DNA from: Deltaproteobacteria bacterium
GTDB taxonomy: Bacteria > Myxococcota_A > UBA9160 > UBA6930
Assembly: GCA_019312665.1 (NCBI GenBank)
Contig: JAFDCZ010000017.1
Span: 1-33,247, forward strand
DNA length: 33,247 nucleotides
Direction: 5' to 3'
Position numbers and translations under genes: made by a program. Position 1 is the stretch's first letter, and every line of letters starts with the position of its first letter. Below are positions 11,368-28,119 of this stretch, piece by piece. The notes beneath the pieces are model-generated. The model saw only the letters and a program-made list of their open reading frames with translations. It was not told the origin of the DNA and ran no database searches.

Positions 11368-11405
11368 GGCCCACGGCGGAGACCTGGCGTCATCCGCCGT
11401 GGGCC
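11368..11405. terminator. Strong 13-bp inverted repeat at convergent gene ends (putative bidirectional terminator)
   Basis: GGCCCACGGCGGA (11368-11380) / TCCGCCGTGGGCC (11393-11405), 12-nt loop; right arm lies in the last codons of the nirDL gene; no clear T-tract. Confidence 0.65.
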
Positions 11406-12412
11406 GACCACCACTCGTCGAGCTCCGGCAGGAAGTAGCGCAGGCGCGTCTTCTTGAACTCGCGCGTGCTGAACAGGACCGCGTAGTCGTCCACGCCGGT
11501 CCGTTCGGACAGCTCCTGGGCCAGCTTTCGGCATGTGGTCTCGTCCGGTCCGTGGATCATGCTGTAGACGGAGTACGGGAAGCCCTGCACGACGTTCCTG
11601 GCGTAGCAGTGGCTCACCTCGGGAGCTTCGGCGAGCTGGCGACCGACGGTTTCGATGTCGGATTCCGGAACCTGCCACACGGCCATTCCGTTGGCGCGAA
11701 CGCCGAGCTTTCTGTGGCGCAGGGTGCCGACATAGCGCCGGATCGCGCCACCCAGGTGCCGATGTGCGAAGGCGAGCAGATCGTCGACTTCGACACCGAC
11801 GTTCTCCGCCAGGAGATCGAAGGGTCGGGCGGTGATCGGTAGAGGCGTTTGAAGGGCCCGGAAGCAGCGCTGGTCGCTCTCTGAGATCTCGATCCTTGCG
11901 ACCTCGGAACCGAACACGGTCGAGGTGGCGTTCTTCCGCGTCTTCGGGTCGAAGTTGACACCGATCTTGAACGTCTGTGTGCGTCGAAGGGGATGGAAGC
12001 GACGGACACCGCTGGAACGCGCGAGGGCGGCGAGCGTCGCATCGATCCCCATAGAAGGGGGGACAGCGACGGTGAACCAGAGGTTGAAGCGGTGGCTGCG
12101 CAGGTAGTTGTGCGTCACCGTCGGGTGCGCGTTGATCACTTCGACGACCCGATCGAGTTCCGGCTCGGCGACCTCCGCCGCGACCAGGGCGCTCTCGTAG
12201 CCGAGTGCGCTGCCCTCCAGCACGGCTGAGATCTCGCGCAGGACACCCTCGCGCTCGAGGTCAGCGAGCTCCTCGATCACCCGGGCCTCTTCGATCCCCA
12301 GGTCAGCTCCGAGCTGCCCGAAGGGGGTCGAAGCGAGCGGCACGCCTGCCTGGATGGCTCGGATCAAAGCGTCGCGGGGAGTCTCCGAAGAATCCGTGCT
12401 CGCGCCGCTCAC
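11390..12412 (-). CDS. nirDL: Fused siroheme decarboxylase (NirDL / AhbA-AhbB type), heme d1 biosynthesis
   Basis: 340 aa with two Lrp/AsnC-like halves, each with an HxYxR-type motif: VTHNYLRSHRFNLWFTV and VSHCYARNVVQGFPYSVYSMIHG; GTG start overlaps nirF stop by 4 nt (GTGA). Confidence 0.9.
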   Translation of the reverse strand: MSGASTDSSETPRDALIRAIQAGVPLASTPFGQLGADLGIEEARVIEELADLEREGVLREISAVLEGSALGYESALVAAEVAEPELDRVVEVINAHPTVTHNYLRSHRFNLWFTVAVPPSMGIDATLAALARSSGVRRFHPLRRTQTFKIGVNFDPKTRKNATSTVFGSEVARIEISESDQRCFRALQTPLPITARPFDLLAENVGVEVDDLLAFAHRHLGGAIRRYVGTLRHRKLGVRANGMAVWQVPESDIETVGRQLAEAPEVSHCYARNVVQGFPYSVYSMIHGPDETTCRKLAQELSERTGVDDYAVLFSTREFKKTRLRYFLPELDEWWSAHGG

Positions 12413-13593
12413 AGCCCGATCCTGAACGCGCGCCAGACACCGAAGATGCCCGACGGTGATTCCAGGGTCTGGACGTCCTCGATGCGTCGTGTGGCGGCGT
12501 TCACCAGCACGAGCTTGTTGTCGCGATTCGCGCTCACCAGCACATGGGAGCCTCTTGGCGTGAAGTCCATGTGATAGATCCGGCCCCCGACCTCGAGCGT
12601 GTCGACCACCTCGAGCTTCTCCGTGTCGATGATCTGCACGAACGCATCGTCCTCTTCTCCCGAGAAGCTCACCCAGATCTCACGCTCGGTAGGCGAGCGC
12701 ACCGCATACACCGGGTGGCCCCGAACGGGAATCGACCGATGGAATTCCCAGGTGCTTCGGTCGAGCACGGCGAGCCGCTTCTCTCCGACGAGTGGCACGA
12801 ACACCCATTTCCCGGCTACCGCCCAGGAGGCCATATGCGGAAGCTTCACCGGTGCGTTCTTGTCGTACTTCAGCGTCGGGTCGCGCAGGGAGATCTCACG
12901 AACGCCGGCCTCCGGCTTCGTGAGATCGAGCACGGAGACCCGATCGGATTCCAGGTGGCCGACCACGTAGTAGCGCCCGTCGGGCGTGATCATCGCGTCA
13001 TAGGGCAGGGCGGCGTTGGTCGGAATGCGATGCTCGATGGGAAACCCGGGCTGGCTTGCGTCGATGATCCAGATCTCGCCGCCCTCGATGAGCACACAGA
13101 CGAAACGGTTTCCTGGAGCGTCCACGATTCCAGTGACGCGCGAGGGAAAGGTCTTGCCGTCTTTCTCGAAGGTCGCGCGATGTTCCTTCAGGAGGTGGAG
13201 ATCCTCGGCGTCGATGAGCGTGACACCACCCGGAACGTATTCAGCGGTCGCGATCACGCGGCCATCTTGGCTTATCGCGTTGTCGATGGAGTTCTGCGAG
13301 GTGAAGATCTCACCGGTGCGCTCGAGGCTCTGCAGGTCGATCCGGCTGACCTTGCCGCCCCGGGTTGCGAGGTAGCCGTAGCGGAGGTCCGGGGAGAAGA
13401 TCATCGTCGCGTGGCGCAGGTTTCCGAGATCCGTGATCCGCTTGGGTAGAAGCTTGCGAGCCTGGTAGTCGTAGACGGCGAGGCTGCCCGATGCGCGTTC
13501 GACCACGAACACACGCGAGCCGATCCCCTCACTCGCAGCCTGCCCCGGGCCGAGCAGCAAAGGGAGCAGGAAAATCCAAACCAGGCGCCGCAT
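12409..13593 (-). CDS. nirF: Heme d1 biosynthesis protein NirF (cytochrome d1-like beta-propeller)
   Basis: VFVVERASGSLAVYDYQARKLLPKRITDLGNLRHATMIFSPDLRYGYLATRGGKVSRIDL...; d1-type propeller without a CxxCH; start at MRRLVWIF (13593) with signal peptide, overlapping nirJ stop by 1 nt. Confidence 0.9.
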   Translation of the reverse strand: MRRLVWIFLLPLLLGPGQAASEGIGSRVFVVERASGSLAVYDYQARKLLPKRITDLGNLRHATMIFSPDLRYGYLATRGGKVSRIDLQSLERTGEIFTSQNSIDNAISQDGRVIATAEYVPGGVTLIDAEDLHLLKEHRATFEKDGKTFPSRVTGIVDAPGNRFVCVLIEGGEIWIIDASQPGFPIEHRIPTNAALPYDAMITPDGRYYVVGHLESDRVSVLDLTKPEAGVREISLRDPTLKYDKNAPVKLPHMASWAVAGKWVFVPLVGEKRLAVLDRSTWEFHRSIPVRGHPVYAVRSPTEREIWVSFSGEEDDAFVQIIDTEKLEVVDTLEVGGRIYHMDFTPRGSHVLVSANRDNKLVLVNAATRRIEDVQTLESPSGIFGVWRAFRIGL

Positions 13594-14792
13594 CACTCGA
13601 GTTCCTTCGCTTTCGAGGAGGGGTTCGCGTCGAAACCGATCTCCGTATCCGTCATCAGACAAGCAGGGTCCGGGGCCCACATGTCGCCATGGCAGGTGAC
13701 CGCCCGTTCGCGATGGGATCCCCGGCAGAGCTCCACGTAGTTGCACTGGCCACAACGTCCCGTCAGATGCTTGGCGCGTTCACGCAGCTGCTGGCGGAGG
13801 GGATGGGCGAGGATGGTTTCGAAGCGCTCGCGTCGGACATCACCGAGCACCGCGCCCCGCCAGAACTGGTCCGGGTGGACCTGCCCAAGGTGGTCGACGT
13901 TCAGAACCCGTTCGCCGGCGGAGTTCCCTCCGCGCTCGCGCAGCAGCTCTTCGACAGGAGCGGCCGCAGCGGCTCCGTAACGCTCCTCGATCCAGCGAAG
14001 CAGGAGCGGTCCGTCCGAATCGTTGGAACCGGTCACGACGCGAAGTGTGTGCCCTCGCTCGAGCAGCTTCTCGGCCGCCTCGAAGAGCTGGACGACCGCC
14101 GACCGAGCGCGATTGCGAGGCAGATCCTCATCGACGAGGTGACGCCCCCGTCCGGAGTAGACCAGGTGGGAGGCATAGAAACGGCTCGCACCTACCTCTC
14201 GCGCGGTGTCGAGTACGGCGTCGAGCTGGTCGATGTTCCGACCGGTCAGTGTCATGCGCAGCCCCGTGCGCATGCCGGCGGCCTTGGCAAAGCGCAGGCC
14301 CGCGAGGGCGGCCTCGGTTCCGCCCTCCATGCCGCGATAGGGGTCGTTGAACTCGCGGACTCCGTCGACACTGATGCCTACATAGGGAACGCCCACCTCA
14401 GCCAGGCGGTTGGCCATCGCTTCGTCGATCAGGGTTCCGTTGCTGGAGAGCTGCGGCGCGATGCCCACCGAGCGGGCGTGGGCGAGCAGCTCGAAGAGGT
14501 CGGGCCGCAGCAGCGGCTCGCCTCCGCTGAAGATGACGATGGTCACGCCGCTGGCCGCCATCTGGTCCAGCAGGTCGCAGGCCTCGGCCGTGGTGAGATC
14601 CTTTGGGGAGGGTCGTGAGCCTGCGGACGCGTAGCAATGCGGACACGTCATGTTGCAATGGACGCAGACATTCCAGACGATCACGGGCCCGTGGAGTTGG
14701 GTCCGTGTGAAGCGCTGGGGAGCACGGGCGCTCGCCTCAGCTGTCGAGAGCTGATTCATTCCAACCTCGAGGAGGTCGCTCACGGGAAGCAT
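13593..14792 (-). CDS. nirJ: Radical SAM heme d1 synthase NirJ
   Basis: CNMTCPHCYASAG (CxxxCxxC), FSGGEPLLRPDLFELL, C-terminal CGQCNYVELCRGSHRERAVTCHGDMWAPDPACLM. Alternative start at 14759. Confidence 0.92.
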   Translation of the reverse strand: MLPVSDLLEVGMNQLSTAEASARAPQRFTRTQLHGPVIVWNVCVHCNMTCPHCYASAGSRPSPKDLTTAEACDLLDQMAASGVTIVIFSGGEPLLRPDLFELLAHARSVGIAPQLSSNGTLIDEAMANRLAEVGVPYVGISVDGVREFNDPYRGMEGGTEAALAGLRFAKAAGMRTGLRMTLTGRNIDQLDAVLDTAREVGASRFYASHLVYSGRGRHLVDEDLPRNRARSAVVQLFEAAEKLLERGHTLRVVTGSNDSDGPLLLRWIEERYGAAAAAPVEELLRERGGNSAGERVLNVDHLGQVHPDQFWRGAVLGDVRRERFETILAHPLRQQLRERAKHLTGRCGQCNYVELCRGSHRERAVTCHGDMWAPDPACLMTDTEIGFDANPSSKAKELE

Positions 14793-14897
14793 GGTCTCTC
14801 CGCCCAGGCAGAAATCGGTTGCACAGCATACCGGTGTGGGGAACGACCGAAAACCCATCGCTTGAGAGGGCTGGAACGGGCTGTTACAACCGCTGTC

Positions 14898-16439
14898 ATG
14901 CACGCCGGCACCTTTGCTCCGTCTGGCAGCCCAGCTCCGGGTTCCGATCGTCTGGGCTCCGATCGTCGAGAACGAGCTTGGCGCCGCCTGGGAGCCGCCC
15001 ACGTGCTTCTGGCGCTCGCCCTGGTCTCCTCGGCCGCCGCGGACACGGAACCGGATCCGTCAGCCCTGTATCAGGAGCATTGCGCCAGCTGCCATGGAGC
15101 CGAGCGCTACGGTGGCTACGCGCCGCCGCTCTACTCCGAGGCGCTGGCCCGCAAGAAGGACGATGCGCTCCTGCGGGGAATCCTCGAGGGGCTTCCCAAT
15201 ACGCAGATGCCGGCCTTCGGGGATCGGATGGACGAGGCCGCTGCCAAGGGCCTCGTCGAATTCGCGCGAAGGCCCCTCCCCGAGGTGGCCTGGGGTGTCG
15301 ATGCGATTGCGGCGAGCCGCGTGGAGGAGGATCCCGGCGCGGATCGGATCTCGCCGTCCATCCGGCGGGATGCGCTCATCCTGGTCGTCGAGCGGGCAAC
15401 GGGAAGCATCTCCGTCCTCGACGGCGACCGGCTCTCGGAGCTCGATCGCTTCTCCGTCGGGCGCATTCATGGGGGCCCGAAGTTCGACCGGGATCTTCAT
15501 CGCGTCTACGCCGTGACCCGCGATGGCACGGTCGTGGAGTACGACATCGATCGGCTCGCGCTCCGGACCCGAGTGAAGGTCGGGGTCAACACGCGCAACA
15601 TCGCGGTCTCGCCCGACGGAGCGTTCGTCGCCGCAGCGAACCAGTTGCCCCGGAGCCTGGTGATCATGGATGCTCAGCTTCGGCCGATTCGGAGCATCCC
15701 TCTCACCGCCCAACCTAGCGGCGTGTATTTCGTTCCGGGCCAGCAGCACTTCATCCTCGGTTTTCGGGATGAGTCGAAACTGCTGATCGTCTCCCTTCCG
15801 GATCTCGGGCTCCGCTGGCTGGAGCTTCCCGAGCCTTTCGAAGATTTCATCCTGGTCCCGGGCCGCAACCAGATCGTCGCGAGTTCCCGCAAGGGGAAGC
15901 GGCTGATCCTCTACGACCTGGCGAGCGAGCGCATCCTGGGGACCCTCCCGACCAACGGTTTGCCTCACCTCTTTTCCGCGTGCTTCTTTGGCGAGGACGG
16001 AGCCCGCCGCGCAGCCTTCAATCACATTGGCGTTCCGCGGCTCTCGATCGTGGACATGGAGTCCTTCGAGATCCTGCGCGAGATCCCGCTGAAAGGCTCC
16101 GGCTATTTCGTTCGCACGCATACCGCGACGCCTTTCCTCTGGGTCGATTCGAATACCGAGGAGATCGAGCTGGTCGAGAAGAGCACGCTGCGGCTTCTCG
16201 AGCGGACGCTGCATCCGGCTCCGGGGAAGAAGGCGATGCACGTCGAGTTCACGGCCGAGGGTGACAAGGCGCTGGTCAGCGTCTGGCACGCCGATGGAGC
16301 GGTCGTGGCCTACGATTCGACGACGCTGGCTGAGGTCGCGCGCCTTCCATACGCTATGCCCGTGGGCAAGTACAACGCTCGGAATCGAACGCGTGACTTT
16401 CGCCGTCCCAAGGCCGGCATCGAAAGTCCCTCGGAATGA
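14898..16439 (+). CDS. nirN: NirN-like cytochrome c / cytochrome d1-domain protein
   Basis: Signal peptide, N-terminal CASCHG heme-c domain, C-terminal d1-type propeller ending MPVGKYNARNRTRDF; in heme d1 gene context. Differs from the window's NirS, which ends TPTGKWNVYNTVHDIY. Confidence 0.85.
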   Translation: MHAGTFAPSGSPAPGSDRLGSDRRERAWRRLGAAHVLLALALVSSAAADTEPDPSALYQEHCASCHGAERYGGYAPPLYSEALARKKDDALLRGILEGLPNTQMPAFGDRMDEAAAKGLVEFARRPLPEVAWGVDAIAASRVEEDPGADRISPSIRRDALILVVERATGSISVLDGDRLSELDRFSVGRIHGGPKFDRDLHRVYAVTRDGTVVEYDIDRLALRTRVKVGVNTRNIAVSPDGAFVAAANQLPRSLVIMDAQLRPIRSIPLTAQPSGVYFVPGQQHFILGFRDESKLLIVSLPDLGLRWLELPEPFEDFILVPGRNQIVASSRKGKRLILYDLASERILGTLPTNGLPHLFSACFFGEDGARRAAFNHIGVPRLSIVDMESFEILREIPLKGSGYFVRTHTATPFLWVDSNTEEIELVEKSTLRLLERTLHPAPGKKAMHVEFTAEGDKALVSVWHADGAVVAYDSTTLAEVARLPYAMPVGKYNARNRTRDFRRPKAGIESPSE

Positions 16440-16867
16440 GGTCGTTCTCGTCGTCGTATGGGTGGGCGCTGGTGGTGGTCGTGATGCTGGCGTTGCCCGT
16501 AGCCGGTGACGCCCGGGATGATGTCCCTGAGGATCTCCTGCACGCGAAGAACACGCTCAGCCTCTCACCCAAACGGATCGCGTATTTCGAGAAGCAGTTC
16601 CGGGCCAAGTGCGCGCGCTGCCACGGTGCCCTCGGAGATGGTGCCGGTAGCGACGCTGAGAAGGATGTCCCGCCGGCTGATCTCACCAACGCTTCGCTGA
16701 TGAGCCAACGCAGCGACGGCCAGCTCTTCTACCAGATCCTGGTAGGAGGCATGCCCCGCTGTGCCATGCCAGCATTCGGCCCCGAATCCGACCACGGCTG
16801 GCCCGAGAAGAAGATCTGGGAGATGGTCGCCTTCGTCCGACGCTTCTCCGAAACATCGGACGAATAG
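16436..16867 (+). CDS. Periplasmic monoheme cytochrome c (NirC-like position)
   Basis: Signal peptide, CARCHG heme site, GGMPRCAMPAFG putative Met ligand; ATGA overlap with nirN stop. Confidence 0.88.
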   Translation: MRSFSSSYGWALVVVVMLALPVAGDARDDVPEDLLHAKNTLSLSPKRIAYFEKQFRAKCARCHGALGDGAGSDAEKDVPPADLTNASLMSQRSDGQLFYQILVGGMPRCAMPAFGPESDHGWPEKKIWEMVAFVRRFSETSDE

Positions 16868-16878
16868 GCAGTCGGCCG

Positions 16879-17418
16879 CTACTCCTCCTTCTGGGTCTTC
16901 ACCCTCGTGAAACTCGTGGCCGGGGTCTTCACGTTCGTAGCCTGGGGTACATGGCACATCGTGCAGTCGTACCGGGCGCCCGAGAGGTCTTTTCCTTTCG
17001 CGTAGGACCCGACCTTCAGGCGCATCGGCTCCCCCGGTTTCCCTTCCACCATCTGTGCGTTCTTGAAGTGGCTCTCGGTGACCGGAATCTCATCATCTTC
17101 CGTGACGTTCATCGGGTGATGACACTCGAGGCACTCGTTCGAATCGCGCCGGATCGGCAGCATGTCCTCCACGGAGTGGGGGATGGAGGGCGGCGCATCG
17201 GGGAACGCGCGATCCAGAAGCTTCGATTCGCCGGGCTCCTCGTCGAGGTAGATCGGGAGCTCCTGGCTCGCAAGCGCACTCAGATCCACGTCGCGAAAGT
17301 ACACGTCGACGCCATCGTCGACCTCGGCGTTCTCGATGTCTTCCGCGCTGACTCCGAATGCCAGCAGGGCCACGAGCATCGTGGCGATCGAAAGGCGGAA
17401 CCAGATTCTTGACTGCAT
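16879..17418 (-). CDS. napB: Periplasmic nitrate reductase diheme cytochrome NapB
   Basis: PPSIPHSVEDMLPIRRDSNECLECHHP...YDCTMCHVPQ: two CxxCH plus NapB motifs; ATG 17418 preceded by AGGAGG. Confidence 0.9.
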   Translation of the reverse strand: MQSRIWFRLSIATMLVALLAFGVSAEDIENAEVDDGVDVYFRDVDLSALASQELPIYLDEEPGESKLLDRAFPDAPPSIPHSVEDMLPIRRDSNECLECHHPMNVTEDDEIPVTESHFKNAQMVEGKPGEPMRLKVGSYAKGKDLSGARYDCTMCHVPQATNVKTPATSFTRVKTQKEE

Positions 17419-17432
17419 GACAGCCTCCTGCA

Positions 17433-18260
17433 CTAGATCTCTGTCGTTGCCGGCTCGTCACCGGCGCGGATGGGTCGAACGTTGAAAGAAAAGACTTCTT
17501 GCGGGCAGACCTCGATGCATCGCGCGCAGTTCGTGCACTCTCCGCCTCCGACGAATCCCGCTGCAGCGATCCTGTCGAAATGGAGCACCTGGGGCTCCGG
17601 GCAGACCCGGACGCAATCCCCGCAGTGGTCGCATCGCTCGGCCGCAAAGGCCGGCCGAAGCAGGGAAGCACGGCCGATCAGCGCATAGAAGGCACCGAGC
17701 GGGCAAAGGGATCCGCACCAGCCGTGGCGCAGGACCAGCACGTCGAGCGCCAGGATCCAGGGGATCACGAGCAATCCGAGGCCCGCTCCGAAGATGATCT
17801 CGCGATGAAGCATGGATACGGGGCTGATCCATTCGAACGCGGCGACACCGAGCACAGCCGAAAGCACGAGCCCGAGCAGCATGAATCCGTATCGGGCCTC
17901 ACGGGCAACGGCCAGCTGGCCGTGGGGGTGGAAACGTCGCTTGATCACGCGGCCGAGGTCGGCGACCGGATTGACCGGGCACACCCACGAGCAGAAACTG
18001 CGGCCTCCAACGAACCAGTAGAAGAGGACGACCACGGCGGCCCCGATCAGTACGGTGCTCGAGATCAGGTGGCCACTGGCGAGGACCTGGAGCGCAGCAT
18101 AGGGATCCGACAAGGGCACGGTACGAAACACTCGGGAGCTCGAGAGATTGCCCGTGAGCCAGCCCAGGTGCATGTGAGCGCCGAGCCAGAACAACAAGAG
18201 GATCCCAGCCTGACTGAGCCGGCGAAGCACGAGGTAGCGATGAGCGAGGATCCAACTCAT
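17433..18260 (-). CDS. napH: NapH quinol dehydrogenase membrane component
   Basis: Multi-TM with FCSWVCPVNP and CGSLCPLGAFY motifs and two [4Fe-4S] ferredoxin motifs (CDHCGDCVRVCP, CTNCARCIEVCP); ATGA overlap with napG. Confidence 0.93.
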   Translation of the reverse strand: MSWILAHRYLVLRRLSQAGILLLFWLGAHMHLGWLTGNLSSSRVFRTVPLSDPYAALQVLASGHLISSTVLIGAAVVVLFYWFVGGRSFCSWVCPVNPVADLGRVIKRRFHPHGQLAVAREARYGFMLLGLVLSAVLGVAAFEWISPVSMLHREIIFGAGLGLLVIPWILALDVLVLRHGWCGSLCPLGAFYALIGRASLLRPAFAAERCDHCGDCVRVCPEPQVLHFDRIAAAGFVGGGECTNCARCIEVCPQEVFSFNVRPIRAGDEPATTEI

Positions 18261-19042
18261 GGCGTCGTGGTCTCTTCGAGCTCATCCAGTGCGTCGAGCA
18301 CCTTGCTCGTATTGTCCTGCCACGCTTCCGGCTGCACGGCATCCGAGGGCCCGAAGTCCCGGCTGATCGTCGGCTCCTCCTCCCAGCCGAAGCGATAGTT
18401 GGATCCGAGCTTGCCCTGCGCGAGATCGCGGGGCAGCACCTTGATCGCCGCCTCCTCCAGAACGCAGGAGTGCTCGCACATCCCGCATCCCGTGCACGCA
18501 TTGGAATTGACCACCGGAAGGAAGAACGCGTGCTTGCCGGTGCGTTCCTGCGGCCGGAACTCGAGCTGGATGGCCTGGCCGATGAGCGGGCAAGCGCGGT
18601 AGCACACCTCGCAGCGCAGTCCTTGGAACGCGAGACAGGTCTCCTGATCGCTCAGGACGGCGAGCCCCATTCGGGCGTCCTCGATCGCCGTGTCGGGCAC
18701 CAGGGAGCCGCTCGGGCAGGCTGCCACGCAGGGCACATCCGGGCACATGTGGCAGGGGATCTTCCTGGGCTCGAAGGACGGCGTGCCCAGCGATTCCTGG
18801 CCGGCGGTGGCGAGCTCCAGGGTGTCGTACGGACACGCTTCGACGCACTGGCCGCATTTGGTGCAAGTAGCGAGGAACTCGGGCTCCGCGCGGGCACCCG
18901 GCGGGCGGCGCCGGAGGATCGGGCCGCGCTGTCCCTCGACCAGCTGGGCCCACACGGCTCCACCCGTGCCCGCAAGGGCGAGATTGCGCCCGCGGAACGC
19001 GCCCGCAAGGAACTCGCGTCGGCTGAAGCCCGAGTCGCTCAT
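18257..19042 (-). CDS. napG: NapG ferredoxin-type protein
   Basis: Tat-like SRREFLAG, four Cys clusters (CTKCGQCVEACP, CHMCPDVPCVAACP, CEVCYRACP, CTGCGMCEHSC). Confidence 0.92.
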   Translation of the reverse strand: MSDSGFSRREFLAGAFRGRNLALAGTGGAVWAQLVEGQRGPILRRRPPGARAEPEFLATCTKCGQCVEACPYDTLELATAGQESLGTPSFEPRKIPCHMCPDVPCVAACPSGSLVPDTAIEDARMGLAVLSDQETCLAFQGLRCEVCYRACPLIGQAIQLEFRPQERTGKHAFFLPVVNSNACTGCGMCEHSCVLEEAAIKVLPRDLAQGKLGSNYRFGWEEEPTISRDFGPSDAVQPEAWQDNTSKVLDALDELEETTTP

Positions 19043-19044
19043 GT

Positions 19045-21645
19045 TCAGATCTTGCGCACCCTGGCTGCGCACTTCTTGTAGTCGGTCTCTTTCGAGATCG
19101 GGCAGGTGGCATCGAGGGTGAGCTTGTTGATCAGGACGTTCTCATCGAACCAGGGCACGAAGACGAGTCCGCGGGGCGGTCGATTCCTCCCCTGGGTCTC
19201 CACGCGCACCTTGACCTTCCCTCTGCGGGATTCCAGTATGACCTCCTCGTTGCGTGCGACGCCCCGCTCCTTCGCATCTTCGGCGTGCATGAAGCACACC
19301 GCGTAGGGGACGGCGCGGTTGAGTTCTTCCACGCGCTTGGTCATGGAGCCGGAGTGCCAATGCTCGAGTACTCGACCCGTGCAGAGCCAGAGGTCGTACT
19401 CGGCATCCGGGCTCTCGGCCGGCTCGGCGTAGGGTCGGAAGAAGATCTTCGCCTTGCCGGCGAGATCGATCTTCTCTCCCTTCAGGCTGCCCTGAGGAAT
19501 CTTCTTCAGCGCCTTGCCGTAGAAGTTGAACCCCTCACCGGGCTTGACGTAGGGGTCGTAGCCTTCCTTGAACCGCCACTGGGTCTCCCTCCCGTTGACG
19601 ACGGGCCAACGCAAGCCGCGCACCCGATGATAGGTATCGAAATCGGCCAGGTCGTGGCCGTTGCCGAGCCCGAATTGGCGGTACTCCTCCCAGAGAGCCT
19701 TGTGCACGAAGAAGCCGAAGTGCTCGGCCATGTCATTCGGATGGCCCTCGGCGATCGGGTCGGGCCAGGCCACCTTCTTCATCTCGTCCGTGGCGAAGAG
19801 CACCTCATACAGGGTCTGCTCCGGGTCGTATCCCATCGCCTTGGCGCCGGCGAGTACGTCCGGGAGCTTTCCGTCTTCGAAGCCGTCGGCCTTCAGGCCG
19901 GGGATCGGTTGCTCCCCCCAGACTTCCTTCAGCTTGAAGCGCTTCGCGAACTCGAGGATCTGCCAGAGGTCGCCTTCCGCCTCTCCCGGTGCCTTCACCT
20001 GCTGGCGCCAATGCTGGGTGCGACGCTCCGCATTTCCGTAGGCGCCCCACTTCTCGTAGATCATCGCGGTCGGCAGGATCAGGTCCGCCACCTTGGCGGA
20101 TACGGTCGGGTAGCAATCCGACACGACGATGAAGTTGTCGCCTTCGCGCGCGGCACGGATCCACTCGCTGGCGTTGGCGAAATCCTGGAAGGGGTTCGTC
20201 ACCATGGCCCAGAAGAAGCGGACCGTCCCGGCGCGAAGGGCTCGCATCATCGCGACCGCATGGGTTCCCACCTTGGGATTCAGGGTTCCTGCGGGCAGCT
20301 TCCAGAGCTTCTCGGATTTTGCCCGGTGGCCCGGGTTGAAGACCACCATGTCCGAAGGCAGGCGGTGGGCGAAGGTCCCCACTTCTCGGGCCGTGCCGCA
20401 CGCAGACGGCTGGCCCGTGAGCGAGAAGGCGCCAGCGCCTGGCGTCGAAATCTTCCCGGCGAGGAGGTGGATCATGTAGATCTGCTCGTTCACCCAGGTT
20501 CCGCGAGAGTGCTGGTTGAAGCCCATCGTCCAGAAGGAAACGACCTTCCGCTCCGGGTCCGCGTAGAGATCGGCGAGCTCGAGGAGCTCCTCCTTCGGGA
20601 CTCCCGAGAGTTCGCTGACGTACTCGACGGTGTAAGGCTCGAGCTTCTGCTTGAACTCCTCGAACGAGATCGCCCAATGGGCGCCCGCCTTGTTGCGCAT
20701 CGTCTGGCCTTGCTCGCGGGGGTGGTCCGCCGGCAGGCCGTAGCCGATGTCCGTGGGGCCCGTTGCGAAGATGCAATGCTTCTTCACGAAGTCGTGATTG
20801 ACCGCATCCTTCTCGATCATGTGCTTCGCAATGAAGTTCATGATGGCCAGGTCGGTCTGGGGTTTGAAGACGATCTCCAGATCGGCGAGATCGCCACTGC
20901 GATTCCCGAACGTGGTGAGGTTGATCACCTTCGTCTTCTTGTGCGTCAGCTTGCGGTCGGTCACCCGCGACCAGAGGATCGGGTGACACTCGGCCATGTT
21001 GGCCCCCCAGGAGACCACCGCATCCGTCACTTCGATGTCGTCGTAGCAGCCCGGGGGCTCGTCGATGCCGAAGGTCTGGATGAACCCGGCGACCGCGGAA
21101 GCCATGCAGTGGCGTGCGTTCGGGTCGAGGTTGTTGGATCGCACGCCGGCCTTCATGAACTTCGCGGCGGCGTAGCCCTCATCGATCGTGTACTGGCCCG
21201 ATCCGAAGATCGAAACCGACGAGGGGCCGGATTCCTCGTAGGCCTCCTTGAACTTGGCGGCCATCACGTCGAAGGCTTCTTCCCAGCTCACCGGGGTGAA
21301 CTTGCCCTGCTTGTCGTATTTCCCGTCCTTCTTGCGGAGCAGCGGGCGCGTCAAGCGATCCTCGCCGTACATGATCTTGGCGTTGAAGTAGCCCTTGATG
21401 CAGTTGATCCCGCGGTTCACGGGCGATTCCGGGTCGCCCTTGACGGCCACCACACGCCCCTTCTTCGTCGCCATCATGATCCCGCAGCCGACCCCGCAGA
21501 AGCGGCATACGGACTTGTCCCACTTCCACCCCGCTTCCAGTGCCTTGGCTTTCGCCTGAGCCTCTGCCGGCACCAGCATTCCCATGCTGGTCGCCGCGGA
21601 GGCTGCAACTGCGGTCTTCAGAAAACTTCGACGCGTCTGTTCCAT
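19045..21645 (-). CDS. napA: Periplasmic nitrate reductase catalytic subunit NapA
   Basis: Tat signal [12 protein letters not shown], [4Fe-4S] site [39 protein letters not shown], Mo-ligand Cys region [13 protein letters not shown]-terminal [21 protein letters not shown]. Confidence 0.97.
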
Positions 21646-21706
21646 GGTGCCCTCTCTCGTCATGCGCGCGGCCGCGAACCGTGCGGCGCTGCGCCCTCGG
21701 ATACAA

Positions 21707-21722
21707 AGCAAGGTTCGCGCCA
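21707..21722 (-). promoter_or_regulatory. Putative sigma-54 (-24/-12) promoter for napA
   Basis: Minus-strand TGGCGCG-AACC-TTGCT, 11 of 12 specified positions of TGGCACG-N4-TTGCW, correct GG-N10-GC spacing, 62 bp upstream of napA ATG. Confidence 0.6.
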
Positions 21723-21830
21723 GCAGAGAGCGATTCTGGAGCCCCCTTGGCCCCAATTTCAGACTTGGTGCGGCGCAGGGCCCCGGCCGATGCGGAAGCA
21801 AGCCTCAGTTGGCTGGAACCTGCCGTCAGC

Positions 21831-22076
21831 TCACTTGCCAGCCTCGTCATCCACGAAATGCTCGACCATCTCGGCGAGAAGGATATGCGGCAGGTTTCGA
21901 AGCTCGAGGATGCGCGCGGTGGCCTCATGCGTGGTCGCGGCTTCGATCGTCGCGATGATTCGTCCTTTTTCGCTCTCTACGTGGTGGACGTCCGCCCATT
22001 CGTGGGCCGCGACGGCGGCCCGGGTCTCGTCGACGTGCTCGGGAAGCGTCGCCACCAGGACGGCTGAAATCATCAT
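21831..22076 (-). CDS. napD: NapD-like chaperone
   Basis: 81 aa; ISAVLVATLPEHVDETRAAVAAHEWADVHHVESEKGRIIATIEAATTHEATARILELRNLPHILLAEMVEHFVDD: NapD-like size and pattern, in nap context; ATGA overlap with upstream gene. Confidence 0.82.
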   Translation of the reverse strand: MMISAVLVATLPEHVDETRAAVAAHEWADVHHVESEKGRIIATIEAATTHEATARILELRNLPHILLAEMVEHFVDDEAGK

Positions 22077-23077
22077 GGCCCAGTCTCCTCCTCAGGGTTC
22101 TCGAGGTTCCAGACCAACAGCCGCGCATCATTGCCGGCGCTGATCAAATTTCTTCCTTCCGACGTGAACGCAAGGGCCTGGATGGGCGCTGTGTGCCCCG
22201 CGAGCTGCCTCAGGATCCGACCGGTGCCGAGTTCGATCAGGCCGATCGCGTGATCCTCGAGCGTTGCGGCCAGCCGCGTCCCTGCCGGGTCGATCGCAAC
22301 GGCGGTGACATAACGATCGCCCTGGTAGAGGGTCCGTGATCTGGGAGGATCGAGCGTAAGATCCCAGTAGAGGATTCGCTTGTCCTTGCTTCCGCTGATG
22401 AGCACTCCATCGTCTGCCCAGCACAGGGCGAAGACGCTGTCCCGATGCCCTTCCAGAACCTGGAGTGTTCGGCCACTTCGTGCGTCCACGACCCGGATGC
22501 GGCTCGAGCGCAGCGCGATCGCCACCCGGCTGCGGTCCGGACTCACCGAGATCGCGTAGATCGGGTCGTAATCGAGCTGCCGGCGGTAGACCTCCTGGCC
22601 CCCATCGGTCTCCACGAGGGCGAGCTCTCCGCGCATGTTTCCGAGCAGCAGATGCCGGTCATCCAGGAACCGGCATGCCAACACGCTACCGGAGGTGGAC
22701 AGGGGAGGAGGCAGCTCCTTGCCATGCCCTTCCGGGTCGAAGAACCACAGCTGTTCGTCAGAGCTGGCGGCTGCTGCACGGAGGCCCCCCGGAGCGACGG
22801 CGACGCAGGAGATCGTGGGCGGGAGATCGCGTCCGGGCCCAGGCAGAAGGGAGAGAGGTGCCTCGAGCTTGGTTCCCTTCCGCCAATCGTAGGCCTCGAC
22901 CCGCCCCGACTGGGTTGCCACGAAGACCCGATCCCCGCGGAGCGCCGCGTCCAGGATCATGTGATCCGCCCGAAAAGCACGACGAGGCGCTTCGGATTCG
23001 TCTTCCTCCGCCCCCGCTGCGCCCGCGAGCCCGGAGAGCGTCAGCACAAGGGCGAGCGCACTCGAGAACGAACTCAC
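22073..23077 (-). CDS. Periplasmic WD40-type beta-propeller protein, NapL-like
   Basis: GTG start at 23077 (GTGA overlap with NrfD gene), signal peptide MSSFSSALALVLTLSGLAGAAGA; WD-repeat-like segments (LQVLEGHRDSVFALCWADDGVLISGSKDKRILYWDL, LRQLAGHTAPIQALAFTSEGRNLISAGNDARLLVWNL). Confidence 0.85.
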   Translation of the reverse strand: MSSFSSALALVLTLSGLAGAAGAEEDESEAPRRAFRADHMILDAALRGDRVFVATQSGRVEAYDWRKGTKLEAPLSLLPGPGRDLPPTISCVAVAPGGLRAAAASSDEQLWFFDPEGHGKELPPPLSTSGSVLACRFLDDRHLLLGNMRGELALVETDGGQEVYRRQLDYDPIYAISVSPDRSRVAIALRSSRIRVVDARSGRTLQVLEGHRDSVFALCWADDGVLISGSKDKRILYWDLTLDPPRSRTLYQGDRYVTAVAIDPAGTRLAATLEDHAIGLIELGTGRILRQLAGHTAPIQALAFTSEGRNLISAGNDARLLVWNLENPEEETGP

Positions 23078-24297
23078 GTCCGCCGATACCCGAACTCCCC
23101 AAGCGTGATGGCGATCGAGATCTTGGCCATGAACGTGAAGCTGAGAAGCCCCACGCCCCAGATGCCTGCACCTACCATGAGCTCGTTCAGGCTCGGGGTG
23201 TAGCGATAGACCTCTCCAATGACATCTGGCGTCAATCCGGGCAACAACAGTCCGAGGCCCTTCTCCACGTACACCCCGGCAACAGCCAGCACGCAGCCAC
23301 AGAGAAGGACGGGAATGCGATTGCGGAAGGCAGGCACGATGAAGATCACGAACGCCGTGACGTTGCACGTCAAGGCGAACAAGGAGTAACCCGCGATGCC
23401 GTAGCCGCCCTCCAAGCTGAACCATTGGAACTGCGCGTGGATGATGTGATGGCTGTGGGAATAGAACTCTTTGAAGACTTCGCAGCCGAGAAGGAAGAGG
23501 TTGATGGCCATCGCGTAGGCCAGGAGCTCGCCGATCTTCCGCAACGCGGCGTCGGAAATCTGGATCGGTCGCACCTTTCGCAGGACCTGGAAGATCAGGA
23601 CCAGCAATGCGGGGCCAGAGCAGAAGGCACTCGCCAGGAAGCGAGGTGCCAGGATGGCCTCATTCCAGAAAGGCCGGGCCTTGAGGCCCATGAAGAGGAA
23701 TGCGGTCACCGTGTGGATGCTGATGGCCAGGGGGATCGACAGGAAGATGATCGGCATGATGAAGGCCGGGTTGTATTTCCGACCCGTGTAGCTCATGAAG
23801 ACGAGATACGTCGCGACGAAGAAGTTGAGGACGAAATAGGCGGAGAGAACGAAGACGTCCCATACGAGCAACGAGTAGGGGAAGTTCGGCGTGCCCACGC
23901 CTGGCATCATGTGCCAGACCATCTCAGGACGCCCGATATCGATCGTGACGAAGAGCATGCACATGATGATGGCGGAGATCGCCAACAGCTCGCCTAGCAA
24001 GGCGACCTCACGAATGGGCCCCCAGTTGTAGATGTAGGCGGGGATGATCAGGATCACCGCTGCCGCGGCCACTCCGACCAGGAACGCAAAGTTGCCGATG
24101 TAGAAGCCCCAGGAAACCGGATCACGCATGTTGGACGTGACCAATCCGAAGCTCAGTTGATTGGAGTACGCCCAGGCTCCGCCCAGGATCATCATCACCA
24201 GCAACGCCAACCAGGCCATGTACCCATGGCTCCCGCGGGTGACGAGGGCCAGGCTCTCCTTGGAGAAATGCCAGAATTCCGCGAGGTATACCTTCAT
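23074..24297 (-). CDS. NrfD/PsrC-family integral membrane quinone-interacting protein
   Basis: 407 aa, about 10 predicted TM segments by eye; WGFYIGNFAFLVGVAAAAVILIIPAYIYNW, LLVWDVFVLSAYFVLNF; downstream of a four-cluster Fe-S protein. Confidence 0.9.
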   Translation of the reverse strand: MKVYLAEFWHFSKESLALVTRGSHGYMAWLALLVMMILGGAWAYSNQLSFGLVTSNMRDPVSWGFYIGNFAFLVGVAAAAVILIIPAYIYNWGPIREVALLGELLAISAIIMCMLFVTIDIGRPEMVWHMMPGVGTPNFPYSLLVWDVFVLSAYFVLNFFVATYLVFMSYTGRKYNPAFIMPIIFLSIPLAISIHTVTAFLFMGLKARPFWNEAILAPRFLASAFCSGPALLVLIFQVLRKVRPIQISDAALRKIGELLAYAMAINLFLLGCEVFKEFYSHSHHIIHAQFQWFSLEGGYGIAGYSLFALTCNVTAFVIFIVPAFRNRIPVLLCGCVLAVAGVYVEKGLGLLLPGLTPDVIGEVYRYTPSLNELMVGAGIWGVGLLSFTFMAKISIAITLGEFGYRRT

Positions 24298-24309
24298 GTC
24301 GGGTTCGCC

Positions 24310-25239
24310 TCAGCCATAGAAGTAGAAGAATTTGGGCCTCGTGTTGAGCTCGGCTTTGAGCACGAAGGTCCGTTTGTTTTTCAGCAGGTAGGAGATCTCG
24401 CTATTCGGGTCGAGAAGGTTTCCGAACTTGCGCGCTCCGACCGGACAAGCCTCATGGCACGCCGGATAGCGTCCATCCCGGACACGCTGGATGCAGAAGC
24501 TGCACTTCTCCACCACCCCGCGTCCGCGCGGCCGGTTGCCGAGCGGATGGATGTTCGTGTTGACCTCGTCCGCAGGAATGTTCGGCTCGGCCCAGTTGAA
24601 ATGTCTCGCGCCGTAGGGACACGCCGCCATGCAGTAGCGGCAGCCGATGCACCAGTCGTAGTCGATCACGACGATGCCGTCGGGCTCTTCCCAGGTTGCG
24701 CCTGTCGGGCAGACGTTGGTGCAGGGCGAGTCCTCGCAATGCTGACAGGCGATCGGGAGGTAGACCATGCCCTCGGCGGGCGCCTGCTCGTGGTCGTAGT
24801 ACGGGTTCCCGTCTTCGAGTTCGAAGCCCCGCACCACGCGTTCGCGCTCGAATTCGAGCACGCGGATCCACTGGATCTCCGGATCGCGGGATTGGTTGTT
24901 CTCCTGGACACAGGCATCGACGCAGCGCCGGCAGCCGATGCAGCGCGAGATGTCGAGGCCGTAGCCGAAGACGACGTTGTCTACAGGGCCTGTGGCCTGT
25001 ACGTCGAAGGGCTTGCCGTACTTCTTCTCGTATTTCCGAGCCAGGCGATCCGTGAGCTCGTCGATTTCCTCGTCGGACATGCTCCGGAAGTTCTTCTGGA
25101 AGAACGTCTCGAAATCGAAGGCCTCGGCGGCGGCAGGCACGCCGGCCGCCGCGCCCACGCCCGCAGCCGTCGTGCGCAGGAACTTCCGCCGGGACGCCCC
25201 CTTGGCATCGAGCTGTTCGTCCCGTTCAGGGTTCTTCAC
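24310..25239 (-). CDS. Tat-exported four-cluster [4Fe-4S] electron-transfer protein (DsrO/HybA/NrfC-like)
   Basis: [12 protein letters not shown] Tat motif; [73 protein letters not shown] start at 25239, 14-nt overlap with upstream gene. Confidence 0.9.
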
Positions 25240-25858
25240 GATCGGTTTCCTCCGGCTCGATGCGCGGCTTCCAGGTGATCGAGGAAGGCCGGACCGGAGG
25301 TGGCTTTGGCTCGATCGGTTTGAACACGGGCGAATGCGGATCGTGGCAGGCCACGCAGGTCCAGTACTCCTTGGCCCCCCACCAGTGGCCAGTACGTTTC
25401 CCGTGGACGCCGGCCTTCCACTCCTCGAGACGCTGGCCATGGCATTGGGTGCAGAGCTTCCAGGAGTCCTCGAAGTCCACCAGGGTTCCATTGGAGAGGC
25501 GGAGGTTGTCGCGCTGGTCCGTGTCGTGGCAGCGCAGGCACCAGAGATCGCCGTGTGCGAGCACGGTCTCTTCGTGGTCGTCCTCGAGTTCGCGCGGCGT
25601 CGGGTTGGTCGGCTCGCCTTCGTGACAGTCGTCGCAAGGCATGTACTCGTCGTTCATCTCGGGCGGCGGTAGCAGCACCGGGAGAGGTTCGGGCGGCAGC
25701 GTCCTGCTCGGGTAGGAGCGAGCGGCATCGGGGCCGAGGGCGCAGCGGAGTGAGAGCAGTCCAAGGACCAGGACGACCGCCAATCCCAGGACGACCCAGG
25801 TCGCCAATCCGCCAGGCTGGGATTGATCGCCCACCTCTCCCGGGTCGTCGTCCGCCAT
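25226..25858 (-). CDS. Membrane-anchored tetraheme cytochrome c
   Basis: N-terminal TM helix ([20 protein letters not shown]) and four CxxCH (CDDCH, CLRCH, CTQCH, CVACH). Confidence 0.88.
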
Positions 25859-25860
25859 CG

Positions 25861-26466
25861 TCAGTCCGCCTCATCCTCGGCCATCGGGTCGTAACCCTCG
25901 GGGACCGGATGTGCGATTTCTGTGACCGCCTTGTCGTAGTCGAAGCCGCTCTTGGTCCCGTCCGCGAGCGTGTACTTCTCGGGATCCCAGGCCGGGCTCT
26001 CGTCGTTGTGACAGGTCGTGCAGACATCGGCGCTCTGGAGGACCAGGCCCTTTTCCACCGCGACATCACGATCGATCATGATCTTCTTCTTGCGGTAGTC
26101 GGTACCTGCCCCGTGGCAGGCTTCGCACTGCACGCCGTTTTCGATCTTGAACTTCATTCCGAGGCGTTCTGCGGGAACGCCGTATGCCGTGACGTGGCAT
26201 TTCACACAGGCCTCGTCGGTGGTCGGGTCGGCGACACCTGCCTCGTCGGCCCATTCCTTCGCCTGGTCCGAGGAGAGGGTCTTGAAGGCCTTGGCGTGGC
26301 TGGTCTTCTCCCAGGAGCCGTACTGGTTGCCGATCGACTCCTTCTTGTGGCAGGACCGGCACTTCTTCACGCCACCGTATTTGTGCTCACCCGCCGGGCT
26401 GCCTGCGAAGGCTGGCCCGGCGAGGAGCCACATCATGGCGACGGCGATCGTCATCATCCGATGCAT
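25861..26466 (-). CDS. Tetraheme cytochrome c, cytochrome c554-like
   Basis: Signal peptide; KYGGVKKCRSCHKKESIGNQYGSWEKTSHAKAFKTLS...CVKCH...VQCEACHGAGTDY...CTTCH: four CxxCH with cytochrome-c554-type spacing and motifs. Confidence 0.87.
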   Translation of the reverse strand: MHRMMTIAVAMMWLLAGPAFAGSPAGEHKYGGVKKCRSCHKKESIGNQYGSWEKTSHAKAFKTLSSDQAKEWADEAGVADPTTDEACVKCHVTAYGVPAERLGMKFKIENGVQCEACHGAGTDYRKKKIMIDRDVAVEKGLVLQSADVCTTCHNDESPAWDPEKYTLADGTKSGFDYDKAVTEIAHPVPEGYDPMAEDEAD

Positions 26467-26490
26467 GGTTCTCTCGGCTTCCCATCCGGC

Positions 26491-28119
26491 CTAATAGATA
26501 TCGTGCACGGTGTTGTACACGTTCCACTTGCCGGTCGGGGTGACGAGCCAGTCGCCCTTGATCCGCTTGATCTCCTTCAGGGTCTTGTCGTCATAGATGA
26601 TGATCTCGCCCTTTCTGTCCCAAACGGAGGTCCAGACCTCGTTGCCCGCCTTGTTGTACTCGAAGTGGACGATCTTTCCGTGGTCCGCGGCCTTCCAGCA
26701 CTTGGGCCCATCGTCGAAGGCCGCCTTCTTGTAGACGCAGATCTTCTGATTGTCGCCTTCGTCCTTGGCCAGGGTGCTGTCCACCCAGATGTTGTCGCTC
26801 TCCGGATGCGTCTTCAGGAAGAGCCCGGGGCCCATCGTCTCCTGCTCGCGAACCACCTTCCAGGCGTGCTCGGGATGGCCCGCAGGATCGGAGCCGAATA
26901 CAGTGATCTTGCCCTCGCCCAGGTGGGTGGTGGCACTCACGGGGCCGTATTCGGGATCGATCCAGTTGGCGCCGCGGCCCGGATGAGGCTTGATGCCCGT
27001 CTCGAATTTCGTGACGAACTTCTTCTCCTTGGTGTCGATGACGACCATCTGGTCTCGCATGTTGGCTGCGAGCAGCAGGTAGCGCTTGGTCGCGTCCCAG
27101 CCGCCGTCGTGGAGGAACCGCTCCGCTGCGATCTGGGTCATCTTGAGGTTGTCGAGGTCGGAGTAGTCCACCAGCCAGACCATCCCGGTCTCCTTGATGG
27201 CAACGACCCACTCCGAATCCGCGTGAGACGCCACGATCGTCGCCACCCGGGGCTCCGGGTGATACTCGTTCGTGTCATAGGTCGACGAACGCGTGGAGAT
27301 GACCTTCTTAGGCTCCAATGTCTGTCCGTCGAGCACGACCATCTGCGGGGGCCAGTAGCAGCCCACGACGGCGAGAGAATCCTCGAAGTCGCCCTTCGGG
27401 CCCTTGTATTTGGACACGTCGATCGAGCGGGCATCCAGGCACGTGCGCACCGAGGCGACGACCTTGGGTTTGTCCGAGTACAGATCGATCAGGTTGACTA
27501 CGCCGTCGCGGCCGATCGTGTAGAAGTACCGGCCCGTCGCCGAGGCACGGAAGATGTGCACGGCGAACCCGGTATCGAGCACTTCGATGAGCTCCTTGGA
27601 ATCGCCGTCGATGATCGCGCCCTTGCCGGCATCGCGAAGGATGAAGCCGAAGTAGTTCTGGATGTCGCGATCATGCTGCGGCTTCGCCGGCCTCGCGTCG
27701 ACCGGCACGATGATCTTATGACTCTCCTTCATCGCCTTCAGGCCCATCTCAGGCGGAATCGGGGCCGGGTGCTGGACGAATTTTGCCATCAGCGCCGTCT
27801 CGGCCTTCGTCATTTCGCCGGTCCTGCCCCAGCCGGGCATGCCGGCTTCGGTCCCGTCGAAGATCACTTCCTCGAGCTCGATGAGCGTCTTCTTCAGCAT
27901 CTTCTCGTCGCTGATGTTCGGTCCCGTCGCTCCCTTGCGAAGGGCGCCGTGGCAGCCCGAGCATCGATCGAAGTAGATGAACTCAGCCTTCCCGAAGTCC
28001 TCTTCGCTCAGCTGCGGCACGGCTTCGGCGCTCGCGACCTGCGCGCCCAACGGCACCCATGCCATCAGGAGCAGGCAGCCCAATGCGTTCGACCACCAGT
28101 TGGAATGGATTCGGCTCAT
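26491..28119 (-). CDS. nirS: Cytochrome cd1 nitrite reductase NirS
   Basis: Heme-c domain CSGCHG; d1 domain motifs YHPEPRVATIVASHADSEWVVAIKETG, FLHDGGWD, HPGRGANW, TTHLGEGKI, C-terminus WLVTPTGKWNVYNTVHDIY. Confidence 0.96.
   Translation of the reverse strand: MSRIHSNWWSNALGCLLLMAWVPLGAQVASAEAVPQLSEEDFGKAEFIYFDRCSGCHGALRKGATGPNISDEKMLKKTLIELEEVIFDGTEAGMPGWGRTGEMTKAETALMAKFVQHPAPIPPEMGLKAMKESHKIIVPVDARPAKPQHDRDIQNYFGFILRDAGKGAIIDGDSKELIEVLDTGFAVHIFRASATGRYFYTIGRDGVVNLIDLYSDKPKVVASVRTCLDARSIDVSKYKGPKGDFEDSLAVVGCYWPPQMVVLDGQTLEPKKVISTRSSTYDTNEYHPEPRVATIVASHADSEWVVAIKETGMVWLVDYSDLDNLKMTQIAAERFLHDGGWDATKRYLLLAANMRDQMVVIDTKEKKFVTKFETGIKPHPGRGANWIDPEYGPVSATTHLGEGKITVFGSDPAGHPEHAWKVVREQETMGPGLFLKTHPESDNIWVDSTLAKDEGDNQKICVYKKAAFDDGPKCWKAADHGKIVHFEYNKAGNEVWTSVWDRKGEIIIYDDKTLKEIKRIKGDWLVTPTGKWNVYNTVHDIY

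Follow-up and report, generated by a model that had tools for sequence, protein, structure and literature searches.

Introduction

Denitrification is usually drawn with NirS, the cytochrome cd1 nitrite reductase, as the soluble end of a bc1/cytochrome c chain. Here we describe a 33,247-nucleotide stretch of DNA (the window: the entire contig C253 from a Myxococcota metagenome bin of 5.3 Mb that is 90% complete) in which nirS leads a gene run that also encodes two tetraheme cytochromes (one c554-like, the other anchored in the membrane), an iron-sulfur (Fe-S) protein and an NrfD-like membrane protein. These four proteins, hereafter the module, probably make up a quinol:cytochrome c oxidoreductase that would serve mainly NirS.

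Several described systems resemble the module in part. In the Nrf system a periplasmic nitrite reductase draws electrons from quinol by way of NrfD, the four-cluster protein NrfC and the cytochrome NrfB (PMC8076601); the likeness to the module is a functional analogy, the quinol feed of such an enzyme, but the client NrfA is a pentaheme protein unrelated to cd1 NirS, whereas the client gene here is nirS. The DsrJOP part of DsrMKJOP combines a multiheme cytochrome with a DsrO-type Fe-S protein exported by the twin-arginine translocation (Tat) route and a DsrP-type NrfD (DsrP1 and DsrP2 are reviewed in PMC8076601), and the module has counterparts of these, its Fe-S protein coming just short of the DsrO cut-off; however, neither DsrM nor DsrK is adjacent here, the triheme DsrJ is matched by a tetraheme protein (four invariant CXXCH motifs), and an extra c554-like carrier and the linkage to nirS set the locus apart. 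Geobacter Cbc4 (CbcSTU) is a quinol-linked, three-gene inner-membrane set of c-type cytochrome, Fe-S protein and membrane subunit, its CbcT being described as orthologous to DsrO (PMC11434368); compared by description it has the same three subunit kinds, but it is proposed for extracellular electron transfer, without a nitrite reductase client. Alternative complex III (ACIII, ActABCDEF) is a quinol:cytochrome c oxidoreductase in which, as in the module, Fe-S and NrfD subunits occur; the module locus lacks the pentaheme ActA, the molybdopterin-like ActB domain, ActD, ActE and ActF. The canonical supply through bc1 and cytochrome c551/NirM/azurin shares the terminal enzyme and differs in that multiheme and Fe-S carriers are here encoded with nirS. 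Related but uncharacterised cytochrome/Fe-S/NrfD sets have also been reported (PMC10732223). Within the open-licence papers searched we found no description of nirS with an NrfD module, and NrfD goes unmentioned in a survey of NirS (PMC10999283). DsrJOP, Cbc4 and NrfBCD already offer the building blocks; their combination with nirS is new within that literature, a known type of quinol module with what would be a new client.

The nirS cassette and its subunits

On the minus strand the order is nirS, c554-like tetraheme, anchored tetraheme, Tat Fe-S, NrfD-like, WD40 and napD, followed by napA, napG, napH and napB. A first-pass annotation made from the sequence letters had reported the first seven as one closely packed run, and this was borne out: all seven are in frame, Pfam and NCBIfam models back each label, and the spacing from nirS through napD is 24, 2, -14, 12, -4 and -4 nucleotides (nt), negative values being overlaps.

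The window NirS matches Cytochrom_D1 (Pfam) at 409 bits, aligns end to end with Pseudomonas aeruginosa NirS at 561 bits (against 160 bits with NirN) and shares with the former both d1-site histidine motifs, FLHDGGWD and THLG. As judged by sequence it is a true cd1 nitrite reductase and not NirN, which is encoded separately on the plus strand.

The four module proteins have the subunit set of a quinol-oxidising NrfD/Fe-S/multiheme unit, quinol oxidation itself being predicted. The c554-like protein (Cytochrome_C554, PF13435, 74 bits) is homologous to Nitrosomonas europaea c554, with a profile score of 62 bits to 1bvb; besides its four CXXCH motifs only two histidines are invariant among relatives, so some of its hemes may be five-coordinate. 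The anchored cytochrome has four CXXCH motifs and exactly four more invariant histidines across 14 relatives and, since these four are invariant, it probably carries four bis-histidine hemes; ligation was read in both cytochromes from conservation alone. The Fe-S protein has Fer4 domains, four cysteine clusters and an RRKFL Tat motif; its nearest NCBIfam model is DsrO (189 bits, cut-off 200) and its nearest solved structures are a 4Fe-4S ferredoxin-type subunit (6cz7), PsrB/NrfC and ActB. Twelve nt from its gene lies that of the NrfD-like protein, which matches the NrfD family PF03916 at 130 bits and has as closest solved relative ActC of ACIII (59 bits). It reaches only 19 bits against the NrfD equivalog TIGR03148 (cut-off 348) and passes the DsrP model NF045798 (361 bits, cut-off 350), as do four other nirS-linked NrfDs (359-377 bits). 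Since dsrA was above its cut-off in none of 17 genomes of the group (dsrB was not searched for), the name "DsrP" would be misleading for these proteins, and there is a practical warning in this: the tested NrfD subunits would be annotated as sulfate-reduction proteins in organisms without detectable dsrA.

The cassette follows one type of NirS

We surveyed 379 genomes of the phylum for NirS (E<=1e-60) and DsrP-type NrfD (E<=1e-20), which were found in 29 and 113 genomes, respectively. The Myxococcota NirS proteins divide into a close group of at least 74% identity (16 genomes) and others at or below 58%. Within the close group, the order from nirS to NrfD recurs in 13 of 15 evaluable genomes; G240 was left out of the count, its contigs breaking on both sides of the expected place. 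Eleven have the order on one contig (G000, G006, G346, G094, G159, G232, G115, G336, G282, G001 and G089, with NrfD cut by the contig end in the last two), and in G080 and G310 the cassette is present with contig breaks within it. Recurrence in 13 genomes places this order far from chance. In contrast, the module is missing from all 36 loci that encode NirS of another type (16 in Myxococcota, 20 in Acidobacteriota/Planctomycetota; Fisher p = 2e-10 for 13/15 versus 0/36, a value that is not a probability over independent events, the genomes being related). One of the loci of other types (L204) has an ACIII-like pair downstream, and 13 of the 16 Myxococcota loci encode a second CXXCH motif in an N-terminal cytochrome c extension of NirS. 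That the module stays with NirS across 13 genomes, even where no nap is adjacent, points to a so far undescribed means of powering nitric oxide (NO) formation.

Quick trees of 88 NrfD proteins and of the Fe-S proteins, both built without bootstraps, are consistent with this distribution. The nirS-linked NrfDs form one clade (SH-aLRT, an approximate likelihood ratio test, 100; 11 rows, one of them from G080, where nirS is not on the NrfD contig), while NrfDs adjoining a NapA-like enzyme form another (support 100); the nirS-linked Fe-S proteins also form one clade (support 90, 10 rows), beside a set linked to pentaheme cytochromes. Furthermore, NrfD pairwise distances correlate with those of nirN and nirJ (r = 0.94), which argues that the module and the heme d1 genes are inherited together. 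An alignment-based search of 85,462 species genomes returned 197 relatives; among the best 80 of these, the top seven are the nirS-type members, and the remainder (49-58%) come from Geothrix/Holophagaceae, other Acidobacteriota, Planctomycetota, Bdellovibrionota and others, with nirS not adjacent. The neighbourhood comparison called for in the first-pass annotation thus ties the module to nirS within Myxococcota but not in the wider family.

Proposed mechanism

We propose that the NrfD-like subunit oxidises quinol, probably menaquinol, and that the four [4Fe-4S] clusters would relay the electrons to the anchored bis-histidine tetraheme cytochrome, from there to the soluble c554-like tetraheme carrier, and on to the heme c domain and finally the heme d1 of NirS, where nitrite would be reduced to NO. 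The module would be to NirS what NrfBCD is to NrfA, standing in for the route from bc1 through a small cytochrome or cupredoxin; it may also move ions, as has been proposed for NrfD-like subunits (PMC8076601). If such a dedicated quinol-oxidising unit exists, the quinol pool would be the direct electron source for NO formation in some bacteria; energy yield and control would differ, and oxygen respiration might not compete. The electron delivery to NirS put forward in the first-pass annotation is partly upheld, insofar as the module tracks NirS type across families, is kept in clusters without nap and has fitting subunit types; quinol oxidation and the transfer to NirS are the steps that we infer.

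A number of observations weigh against a module dedicated to NirS. Of the two evaluable genomes without the cassette, G277 has a contig on which nirS stands alone (the contig with its nap and nir genes is broken off at napA), and G258 has nirS elsewhere, without the module, which there follows nap in a single run, napA-G-H-B-tetraheme-FeS-NrfD; from this arrangement, the module may have an additional or ancestral Nap role. The gap between nirS and the c554-like gene reaches 310 nt in one genome, so a single transcript is not certain. AlphaFold2 models are poor for both cytochromes, with a mean confidence (pLDDT) of ~50 for the anchored tetraheme (14 sequences) and ~48 for the c554-like protein (12 sequences). 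ActB of ACIII is found in 15 of the 17 genomes (weakly in G258; not in G336 or G282), and a monoheme NirC-like cytochrome is encoded beside nirN; another quinol:cytochrome c route to NirS therefore exists.

It is possible, though we consider it unlikely, that the module works for nitrate reduction, feeding NapAB either exclusively or along with NirS and acting as a quinol oxidase common to the periplasmic nitrogen-oxide reductases. The G258 run is what this would predict, as are the nap genes in the clusters of nine module genomes, the position of the module divergent from canonical napA in an Acidobacteriota bin (L139) and in G266 (L069), and the separate Myxococcota clade in which it stands beside a NapA-like enzyme. 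Yet in five genomes (L036, L038, L039, L040 and L043/L044) NrfD is followed directly by nirC/nirN/nirJ/nirF-type genes, with no nap in the cluster (nap elsewhere in these genomes was not searched for), which places the module with nir, as a feature of nir clusters in which nap is an optional insert. Five of the nine nap-bearing clusters hold both NapG and NapH, so that Nap there has its own quinol dehydrogenase, a part that NapGH is able to play in Wolinella according to work cited in PMC3475470. The nirS-linked and NapA-like-linked NrfDs also occupy separate clades, and the c554-like gene lies between nirS and the other module genes in every intact nirS cassette. The WD40 gene, which the first-pass annotation had rightly placed in the run, was seen only in clusters that also hold nap; we therefore reject it as a module subunit and assign it to nap.

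About as doubtful is a second alternative, in which ACIII (or bc1) feeds NirS via the NirC-like or another small cytochrome c, while the neighbouring module does something else. The wide occurrence of ActB, the NirC-like cytochrome adjoining nirN and a clear bc1-type cytochrome b in G336 are compatible with it; however, the module is specific to one NirS type and is kept beside NirS without nap, and ACIII, where its locus was read (L081, in the window's own genome), sits on another contig. Searches with PF00032 and PF13631 did not clearly find bc1 cytochrome b in 14 of the 17 genomes: PF00032 matched only in G336, and strong PF13631 matches were confined to G336, G149 and G258, PF13631 alone being a misleading bc1 marker, with mostly weak matches in frames of ~700-900 amino acids (aa). 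Independence from bc1, as suggested at first for the module along with independence from NirM, is plausible for most of these genomes; it is qualified by the bc1-type matches in those three and by the ACIII and NirC-like proteins also encoded. Less probable again is that the c554-like cytochrome acts on NO, hydroxylamine or some other toxic intermediate rather than passing electrons to NirS, with the module feeding it so as to protect the cell from NO made by NirS. c554 can reduce NO, and both the homology to the N. europaea protein and the possibly five-coordinate hemes lean this way, but that ligation was read from conservation, the structure model being of low confidence, and several relatives have, close to nirS, candidate NO-reducing proteins of the heme-copper oxidase type. 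As for a sulfur-cycle complex of the DsrMKJOP type present here by chance, the DsrP-level NrfD score and the DsrO-like Fe-S protein would be expected of it, but given no dsrA above cut-off, neither DsrM nor DsrK adjacent and a partner cytochrome with four hemes, not three, we regard it as highly improbable.

Features of the window

Within the heme d1 region, one protein (11390-12412) is a fusion of NirD/L and NirG/H siroheme decarboxylase halves (AhbA-like, 204 bits; AhbB-like, 222 bits).

Table 1. Features at and around the nirS cassette (TM, transmembrane segment).
Feature	Coordinates	Strand	Remarks
nirS, cytochrome cd1 nitrite reductase, 542 aa, ATG start	26491..28119	-	one CXXCH, both d1-site His motifs
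c554-like tetraheme cytochrome, 201 aa, Sec signal	25861..26466	-	four CXXCH, only two further invariant His
membrane-anchored tetraheme cytochrome, 210 aa, one N-terminal TM	25226..25858	-	four CXXCH, four further invariant His
Tat-exported DsrO/PsrB-like Fe-S protein, 309 aa, GTG start	24310..25239	-	four [4Fe-4S] Cys clusters
NrfD-like (DsrP-type) integral membrane protein, 407 aa, 9-10 TM, putative quinol site	23074..24297	-	
WD40 propeller with signal peptide, GTG start	22073..23077	-	assigned to nap
napD	21831..22076	-	NapD match
napD-napA-napG-napH-napB, periplasmic nitrate reductase with own NapGH quinol dehydrogenase	16879..22076	-	
heme d1 / nir accessory genes	11390..16867		nirN + nirC-like (+); nirJ, nirF, fused nirDL/GH (-)

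Further observations

NirS proteins with two CXXCH motifs (L097-L105, L108, L110-L112, L201-L203, L205 and L220) come from families f12, f15, f17 and f18 of Myxococcota and from other groups, and the module accompanies none of them; their fused second cytochrome c domain may be their own answer to electron entry.

At L048, L071, L073-L079, L082-L087 and L090-L092, we observed a NapA-like enzyme just under the NCBI NapA cut-offs (893 versus 904 bits in L073); a tetraheme cytochrome and a NapG-like protein often accompany this enzyme, which in many Myxococcota is coupled to its own clade of tetraheme-FeS-NrfD modules. A related tetraheme-FeS-NrfD triad is common in Geothrix, cultured species included (L128, L136, L150 and other Geothrix/Holophagaceae loci), where it often adjoins a ~600-aa protein with 10-15 TM that, in the one tested, has no Pfam match. 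Multi-TM proteins of 556-605 aa beside the wider module family were considered as oxidases or NO reductases and dropped (two have no Pfam match, one is DUF2339); a 648-aa candidate from family f16, which has two heme-like motifs, is actually a sensor kinase.

One of the weak PF13631 frames, when examined, proved to be a cytochrome b/Fe-S/FlpD protein and not bc1. Proteins of this kind (~700-720 aa; cytochrome b joined to two [4Fe-4S] motifs and a domain resembling FlpD/HdrA; L040:1635-3791 and L209-L219, e.g. L210:6536-8632) have their genes immediately upstream of nirS at several loci of Planctomycetota, and one Myxococcota genome encodes such a protein in its nirS region; they score 500-576 bits between them. 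The majority of module genomes have weak PF13631 matches in frames of about this length. The protein may act as an additional quinol-linked donor for NirS or as an NO reductase. Lastly, a set comprising a divergent heme-copper oxidase subunit I, a CuA subunit II of 175-186 aa and SCO adjoins nirS in both Myxococcota and Planctomycetota (L036:14901-18801, L037:14601-18867, L041:14783-18595 and L209-L219) and is a candidate for an unusual, bNOR/sNOR-like NO reductase.

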